From Acidobacteriota bacterium (GTDB taxonomy: Bacteria; Acidobacteriota; Blastocatellia; Chloracidobacteriales; JADJPF01), in NCBI GenBank assembly GCA_016213785.1, contig JACQZQ010000106.1:1-64000 (forward strand): 64,000 bases of DNA. Reading direction: 5' to 3'. Within the stretch, counting starts at the first letter, position 1, and the number at the start of each line of letters is the position of its first letter. Below the pieces are notes generated by a model. It saw nothing but the letters and a program-made list of their open reading frames with translations, did not search any database and was not told the DNA's origin. Position numbers and translations under genes: made by a program. Below, in pieces: positions 43,896 through 45,265 of this stretch.

Positions 43896-43959
43896 TATAG
43901 GTATTTAAAATACTAACTTATTTATATTTAATTGGTTCATAAAATAAATTAAAGCTTAA

Positions 43960-44193
43960 TTAAGTTAATATTTTCTTGAATTCCTCCAAACTATTTACTA
44001 AAATAGCTTGCTTACGTAAGTTTTTGAGTAGAGTAATATCCTCTGTTTTATTTACAGTTTCAGTTAAATTTTTAGGAATAGCTCCAAATCTAGTTTCTAA
44101 AATATTTATAACAGATTCTTTTGCATTTAGAATAGAGCCTTGTTGTAAGCCTTGTTGTAAGCCTTGTTGCATCCAAGATGTAACTATTTCCAT
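43960..44193 (-). CDS. free-standing Rpn-like C-terminal tail protein (77 aa)
   Basis: A 77-aa frame (MEIVTSWM, then QQGL repeats, then SILNAKESVINILETRFG) that matches the last 97 residues of the Rpn-like protein encoded just upstream, with three instead of eight QQG units and about six other changes. It starts 78 bp past the stop of that gene. AAAAGGAGG (44199-44207) lies 5 nt before the ATG, an almost perfect ribosome binding site. The frame therefore looks translated rather than a dead fragment. In E. coli Rpn systems the C-terminal part is made from an internal start and blocks the full-length toxin, so this could be a separate copy of such an antitoxin. That is inference. Confidence 0.6.
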   Translation of the reverse strand: MEIVTSWMQQGLQQGLQQGSILNAKESVINILETRFGAIPKNLTETVNKTEDITLLKNLRKQAILVNSLEEFKKILT

Positions 44194-44271
44194 AACTGCC
44201 TCCTTTTCTTTTGGTTCAATTTTATCTAAATTTTGTTGAAGTATTTTTTCTTCTGCTTAAAAAAAGCTTAA

Positions 44272-44565
44272 TTAAGTTAATATTTTCTTGAATTCCTCCA
44301 AACTATTTACTAAAATAGCTTGCTTACGTAAGTTTTTGAGTAGAGTAATATCCTCTGTTTTATTTACAGTTTCGGTTAAATTTTTAGGAATATCTCCAAA
44401 TCGAGTTTCTAAAATATCTATAACAGATTCTCTTGCATTTAGAATAGCGCCTTGTTGTAAGCCTTGTTGTAAGCCTTGTTGTAAGCCTTGTTGTAAGCCT
44501 TGTTGTAAGCCTTGTTGTAAGCCTTGTTGTAAGCCTTGTTGCATCCAAGATGTAACTATTTCCAT
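44272..44565 (-). CDS. possible intragenic C-terminal product of the rpn-like gene (97 aa)
   Basis: Within the rpn-like gene, AAAAGGAGG with 5-nt spacing precedes an in-frame ATG (44565). The product would be the last 97 residues, including the eight QQG units. The same arrangement is duplicated at 43960-44193. It follows the pattern reported for E. coli RpnA, where a short internal product inhibits the nuclease. Expression is not shown here. Confidence 0.45.
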   Translation of the reverse strand: MEIVTSWMQQGLQQGLQQGLQQGLQQGLQQGLQQGLQQGAILNARESVIDILETRFGDIPKNLTETVNKTEDITLLKNLRKQAILVNSLEEFKKILT

Positions 44566-45249
44566 AACCGCCTCCTTTTCTTTTGGTTCAATTTTATCTA
44601 AGTTTTGTTGAAGTATTTTTTCTTCTGCTGAAGTTAGTTTTAAGTAAGTATCTATAAATCCAGATATAAGCTTTGTTTTTGCTGGGTTAAGTTTTAAGGT
44701 TACTAACATTCTTAAGCATTCTAATTTAACTTTAGGCCTATCTTCCTTTGCTATTTGCATTTTTGACATTAATGCACTTGCAACAGGGTTTGTTTGATTT
44801 AGATAATCTCTCCAATTTAACCTATTTAGTTGTATTGTTTGGTAATTAAAGTTAAGGACTTCTAAATCAGGAAACTCTACTTTGTAATTACTTAATGGTT
44901 CTGTTTTAGGGCTATCATATGAGAATATCACTATTGGGTAAACAGGCAGTCTATATTTTTCGAATAACCTAGCAAAATAGCAAAATAACCTTTCTCCAAA
45001 TTTTTTTTGATATTGAGCTTGGCTTTCTAGATGAATTAGGAAAAAAGCCTCTTTTCCTATAAATTTTCCTTTTACTAGTATATCTACCTCATGTGCTTCG
45101 CCTTTTACTACATCTGTAAACACTTCCTTATCCAAAAAAACAATACTATCTTTATCTAAATATTTTGCCATTTGAGGCAAAAATAGTTCTAAAAACTCGA
45201 TAAAAAATGTTGTAATTAATTCTTTAAATAATCTGTCATGACTTATCAT
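44272..45249 (-). CDS. Rpn/PD-(D/E)XK nuclease-family protein
   Basis: A 325-aa protein of the Rpn/PDDEXK-transposase-like family, DNA-cleaving proteins that act in recombination and phage defence. The nuclease core is near the start: EVDILVK (Asp56), then FFLIHLESQAQ (Glu75-x-Gln77). The C-terminal part (from about 229) has eight QQG units (QQGLQQGL) followed by a conserved ILETRFGDIPKNL end, the DUF4351-type tail. A GGAGG (44571-44575) inside the gene precedes an internal Met at codon 229. It lies inside the exopolysaccharide-like block on the same strand, directly upstream of its own duplicated tail, so it looks like a passenger gene. Confidence 0.8.
   Translation of the reverse strand: MISHDRLFKELITTFFIEFLELFLPQMAKYLDKDSIVFLDKEVFTDVVKGEAHEVDILVKGKFIGKEAFFLIHLESQAQYQKKFGERLFCYFARLFEKYRLPVYPIVIFSYDSPKTEPLSNYKVEFPDLEVLNFNYQTIQLNRLNWRDYLNQTNPVASALMSKMQIAKEDRPKVKLECLRMLVTLKLNPAKTKLISGFIDTYLKLTSAEEKILQQNLDKIEPKEKEAVMEIVTSWMQQGLQQGLQQGLQQGLQQGLQQGLQQGLQQGAILNARESVIDILETRFGDIPKNLTETVNKTEDITLLKNLRKQAILVNSLEEFKKILT
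44444..44540 (-). repeat. 12-bp QQGL tandem repeats in the rpn-like gene
   Basis: Eight nearly identical 12-bp units (CAACAAGGCTTA on the minus strand) code for LQQG. The copy in the free-standing tail gene (44135-44170) has three. The 12-bp unit keeps the reading frame. Confidence 0.85.
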
Positions 45250-45265
45250 AATTTACACTAAATCT

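Follow-up and report, generated by a model that had tools for sequence, protein, structure and literature searches.

A putative gene-within-gene Rpn toxin–antitoxin locus that carries a second, free-standing copy of its own tail gene was found on contig JACQZQ010000106.1 of an Acidobacteriota bacterium, in the 64,000-nucleotide stretch of DNA that was analysed here as a whole (the window). We put the probability at about 0.6 that this locus was recently inserted, that the tail protein RpnS made from within the toxin gene is its working antitoxin, and that the free-standing copy is mainly a spare tail.

Organization of the locus and its genomic setting

All features of the locus lie on the minus strand.

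43896–45265, minus strand: rpn plus tail stretch of about 1.37 kb between asnB and a flippase/glycosyltransferase gene (genome comparison)
44272–45249, minus strand: rpn gene (RpnL-like), 325 aa, N-terminal nuclease domain and C-terminal tail (ORF)
44575–45249, minus strand: nuclease domain, residues 1–225 of the rpn product (column conservation, fold matches)
44272–44565, minus strand: intragenic RpnS-like gene, 97 codons, 8 QQG units (start Met invariant in alignment)
44563–44565, minus strand: internal ATG, codon 229 of rpn (sequence)
44571–44579, minus strand: internal ribosome-binding site AAAAGGAGG, 5 nt 5' of the internal ATG (sequence)
44437–44556, minus strand: 12-nt repeat array within rpn, encoding LQQG repeats (sequence)
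44263–44629, minus strand: upstream copy of the duplicated block, 367 nt (alignment)
43951–44257, minus strand: downstream copy of the duplicated block, 307 nt (alignment)
43960–44193, minus strand: free-standing tail gene, 77 codons, 3 QQG units (ORF, alignment, AF2 model)
44199–44207, minus strand: ribosome-binding site AAAAGGAGG of the free-standing tail, 5 nt before its ATG (sequence, alignment)

This anatomy agrees with the original prediction of a 325-aa gene with an internal ATG behind AAAAGGAGG, whose 3' segment and ribosome-binding site are duplicated downstream as a 77-codon frame with a different number of repeats. Eight substitutions separate the two blocks, along with a single 60-nt gap that corresponds to five 12-nt repeats, and their identity of ~97% over 300 nt is far above chance expectation. 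Because the copies carry these substitutions an assembly duplicate is unlikely, and with the additional 60-nt difference we ruled out an assembly artefact as the source of the duplication. The free-standing copy contains neither a frameshift nor an internal stop. An in-frame TAA (44257–44259) directly 5' of the copy closes its reading frame, indicating that the internal-type ATG is the natural start of the copy. The free tail is identical to the upstream tail at 73 of 77 aligned residues (94.8%); its 77 codons contain four amino-acid and two silent changes (dN/dS 0.52), six changes being too few to separate selection from drift. Promoter and terminator scans of the locus region yielded nothing above chance, and we assume that the free copy is co-transcribed with rpn.

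The rpn gene begins 17 nt past a gene that we take to be asnB; the neighbour on its other side encodes 986 aa and is presumably a flippase/glycosyltransferase gene. Both neighbours were named by sequence recognition. In one genome of the same genus these two genes adjoin, 26 nt apart, and rpn is also absent between them in two genomes of the same family. Among the genomes compared, only the window genome has rpn at the asnB site. As the two genes adjoin in relatives, the rpn and tail stretch looks like an insertion. Neither terminal inverted repeats nor a target duplication were evident around the stretch, and rpn genes are generally without them (PMC10327210). Separately, the flippase/glycosyltransferase gene of a same-genus genome (L161:1720–4665) was recovered as two tblastn pieces meeting near residue 575, and may be split there.

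Family assignment of the nuclease and its tail

A profile of 19 homologues of the window protein matched a profile of E. coli RpnA, RpnB, RpnC and RpnE with 96.9% probability (hhalign, E = 1.9e-10, 21% identity). Window residues D5, D56, E75, Q77 and R87 align with D11, D63, E82, Q84 and R94 of RpnA, and the first four are in register in the hhalign alignment. The D11A, D63A, E82A and Q84K substitutions abolish the RpnA phenotypes (PMC5350276). Across the 19 homologues the columns of D56, Q77 and R87 are invariant and E75 is conserved in at least 90%. The predicted structure of the N-domain matched almost exclusively PD-(D/E)XK nucleases, including NucS/EndoMS (Z 8.8 and 8.7), McrC, Card1, TnsA and BamHI; the best match (Z 8.8) had an rmsd of 3.1 over 103 aligned residues. 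Pfam and NCBIfam models by themselves did not identify the protein. TIGR01784 scored 25.4 bits with the window protein (E = 1.1e-5) against a curated cut-off of 52.1, a Pfam search of that protein at 1e-3 gave zero matches, and a PDB sequence search gave no usable match. In a weak Pfam search (E up to 1), PF04754 was found in 10 of the 19 homologues (best 3.3e-5) and DUF4351 in 18. Matches of the window protein to FliH and Yae1 were dismissed, both falling on the QQG repeats. Taken together, the alignments and the predicted fold give good support to the assignment, already proposed in the original prediction, of the window protein as an Rpn-type (YhgA-like, COG5464) nuclease with a PD-(D/E)XK core. 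Its closest orthologue is 87% identical and comes from a Blastocatellia metagenome-assembled genome (MAG) of the same genus; the contig ends 5' of the tail, so this figure covers the pre-tail part only.

RpnL and RpnS proteins are marked by four-residue repeats that begin 8–20 residues after the internal Met. The window tail fits this pattern, its repeats beginning at residue 9 from the internal Met. RpnS is further characterized as a three-helix bundle that dimerizes via its first helix. An AF2 monomer model of the 77-aa tail (pLDDT 86) contains a long helix (residues 2–36) and three short ones (41–49, 53–65 and 69–76). Searches with this model using Foldseek and VIA-align 2 returned generic helical bundles, with 7TH0 unlisted, a result that carries little weight for a small helical protein. 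The window protein is the sole exception in the aligned set of 19 to the presence of a DUF4351 (PF14261) tail, and its own tail core shares 46–57% identity with tails found in other Rpn subfamilies, two of these tails being encoded in its own genome. The protein thus has a chimeric look around 44275–44448 (minus strand), combining the N-domain of a DUF4351-tailed subfamily with the tail core of another Rpn subfamily. Tail exchange via the repeats would be the simplest reading of this arrangement.

Free-standing tails in E. coli and in relatives

The original prediction stated that no described system with such a free-standing copy was known to it. This part did not hold, as Zhong et al. (2023, PMC10327210) reported RpnE_S (ypaA), which is free-standing downstream of rpnE and was detected as protein, as well as RpnC_S downstream of rpnC in some strains. 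We confirmed the rpnE–ypaA arrangement in K-12, where ypaA begins 12 nt past rpnE, shares its AAAAGGAGAGATTAATG and has an additional four-residue repeat; no tail gene is annotated downstream of K-12 rpnC. The rpnE–ypaA pair resembles the window locus in that a PD-(D/E)XK Rpn gene with an internal start is directly followed by a tail copy that has kept the ribosome-binding site and ATG, and in that the number of four-residue repeats differs between the two tails. However, the sequences are distant (the 21% identity given above), the tail cores are different, and the repeat units number 1 and 2 rather than 8 and 3. In addition, K-12 rpnE is annotated as inactive whereas the catalytic residues are retained in the window protein. 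By its published description, rpnC with RpnC_S is an independent case of a downstream free tail. The window copy is tail-only, lies directly downstream of rpn on the same strand, has its own ribosome-binding site and is derived from the upstream tail. We conclude that the window locus is a further example of the rpnE–ypaA type.

How often tail copies follow rpn genes, a question raised by the original prediction, was surveyed in E. coli and in the subfamily of the window protein. Of 5,426 complete E. coli genomes, 3,099 (57%) contain the junction between rpnE and the copy. In 18 strains with both tails, K-12 included, there were seven repeat combinations, all seven of them mismatched. Repeat mismatch is thus common in rpnE/ypaA; since pairing the repeat numbers of the seven haplotypes at random leaves every pair mismatched in 86% of cases, avoidance of matching repeats cannot be claimed, and selection for mismatch is not implied. 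The C-terminal core of the copy is located on rpnE itself in two sampled strains that do not have the free copy, in line with a published fusion (PMC10327210).

Within the subfamily, a tail-only frame lies directly downstream of rpn at 9 of the 97 loci with enough sequence to score. Unambiguous copies, each with a start of its own, are found in the window and at L074/L075 (one event), L079, L091, L099 and L116, which amounts to at least five events besides the window. Two candidates were excluded, L071 being a split gene and the frame behind L086 belonging to another rpn subfamily. Relative to the upstream tail, the copy differs by −5 repeats in the window, 0 at L074, −1 at L075, 0 at L079, −2 at L091 and −3 at L116; L099 is a double tail in which the repeats are not countable. 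The cyanobacterial loci L074, L075, L079, L091 and L116 share with the window the N-domain subfamily and its M(E/Q)I(V/T/I)TSWM start, and the ATG of their tail copies lies 22–102 nt past the stop, with a ribosome-binding site. Their subfamily tails are mostly of the DUF4351 type, whereas the core of the window tail is of another type. The dN/dS of the cyanobacterial tails is 0.15–0.29, which is lower than would result had the free copy drifted after the duplication, and indicates purifying selection on those tails. With 94% identity over 4.9 kb, L074 and L075 represent one and the same locus, yet tail 1 of either partner is the counterpart of tail 2 in the other, and the correspondence extends into the upstream sequence (L074:1481–2120, L075:3621–4260). 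From the sequences, we conclude that the internal and free tails of this locus exchanged positions in the past.

In another subfamily, a tail lies directly behind the gene at L062 and L083, with two consecutive tails at L062. The Microcystis loci L062, L066, L083 and L086 have one or two tail-only genes after rpn whose C-terminal cores differ, resembling small tail arrays. Tail frames with an internal-type start and no adjoining rpn were also seen (L043:2487–2759, L045:1794–2105, L040:2429–2809 and L041:2352–2672), one of them close to the end of a contig, following genes of the plasmid replication type. Such frames could be either remnants or genes that stand alone.

RpnS binds to RpnL and prevents cleavage (PMC10327210). 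When one four-residue repeat was added to RpnC_S it no longer counteracted RpnC_LS, and matching the repeats of both restored its action (PMC10327210). Given that RpnC_S lost inhibition with a single added repeat and that the window tails differ by five, it is doubtful that the free copy inhibits the neighbouring RpnL. Thus, of the original claim that an inhibitor-like part exists twice, the two tail genes are seen, and the free copy as an inhibitor would be questionable on this comparison. The best-surviving alternative, which we nevertheless consider unlikely, is that the free copy is a second antitoxin that raises the dose against the adjoining RpnL, repeat number being of little weight. 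The retained ribosome-binding site, start and residue identity of the copy, the purifying selection on free copies elsewhere and the production of RpnE_S as protein would all be expected of such a gene. The outcome of the RpnC_S experiment runs counter to it, as do the mismatches in the window, at L075, L091 and L116, and in all the E. coli haplotypes. As the mismatch experiment was performed with RpnC only, mismatched tails might still bind in the family of the window protein. Slightly less probable is that tandem duplication and repeat slippage recently produced the copy as a by-product without function. Tandem duplications are typical of rpn genes (PMC10327210), and with a divergence of only ~3% the copy is too young for its six changes to give a selection signal. 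This explanation does not account for the intact frame, start and ribosome-binding site of the copy, nor for the persistence of independent copies in cyanobacteria with low dN/dS and in more than half of the E. coli genomes. Less probable again is an immunity gene directed against short-repeat RpnL variants from other cells or incoming DNA. The repeat-matched specificity demonstrated for RpnC and the differing cores of the Microcystis tails are compatible with such a role; however, a genome search found no RpnL with a matching tail in the window's own genome.

The internal start and the proposed role of the two tails

In the 28 homologues with an ATG at the internal position, the longest Shine-Dalgarno match averaged 5.75 nt, compared with 3.98 nt after synonymous shuffling with each gene's own codons (0 of 2000 shuffles reached the observed sum) and 2.70 nt at 153 other ATG codons of the same genes, and the internal ribosome-binding site was at least 4 nt long in 96% of 113 homologues; as homologues share descent, these figures are not independent draws. 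The signal persists while the encoded amino acids change (KEKEAV, REAT, GGNH and RSES), and the start Met is an invariant column of the alignment. Hence, it is highly improbable that the internal ATG and ribosome-binding site are fortuitous and that RpnS is not made. The conservation of the internal start across Acidobacteriota and cyanobacteria appears to go beyond coding constraint, and selection on it is well supported by these comparisons.

Within the window, the internal site matches over 7 nt, compared with a best of 6 nt among 33 starts scored, and no clear ribosome-binding site precedes the full-length RpnL start. The combination of a weak RpnL start with the strongest site at the tail fits production of RpnS in excess. 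In the region preceding the full-length start (45250–45265) no clear site is present, whereas the 87% identical orthologue, which resides at a different locus, carries AAAGGA ahead of the ATG; the window gene may have lost its ribosome-binding site through the insertion.

The preferred reading can then be put as follows. A gene-within-gene toxin–antitoxin locus would have been inserted recently into an exopolysaccharide operon. It would encode the full-length PD-(D/E)XK nuclease RpnL as toxin and, from the strong internal ribosome-binding site, the C-terminal tail RpnS, which would bind and silence RpnL. A second RpnS gene would have arisen when the 3' end was tandemly duplicated together with its ribosome-binding site, after which the two tails would have diverged to 8 and 3 repeat units. 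As part of the RpnL gene itself, the internal RpnS necessarily has the matching repeat number and would be the working antitoxin. The free copy would be made, would pair poorly with the neighbouring RpnL, and would act mainly as a spare tail that changes partner specificity upon recombining back into the toxin gene. The spare-tail proposal fits because exchange is seen at L074/L075 and in E. coli, that is, at loci other than that of the window. More generally, free Rpn tails could be exchangeable specificity cassettes, in which a mismatched spare is kept beside the toxin and switched in by recombination instead of inhibiting its neighbour; we offer this only as a tentative suggestion.

Copied-out Rpn tails are not confined to E. 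coli but have originated on repeated occasions in both Acidobacteriota and cyanobacteria, and their repeat number has often changed. As repeat number decides which tail inhibits which toxin in the single case tested, the role of mismatched free tails is directly assayable by expression.
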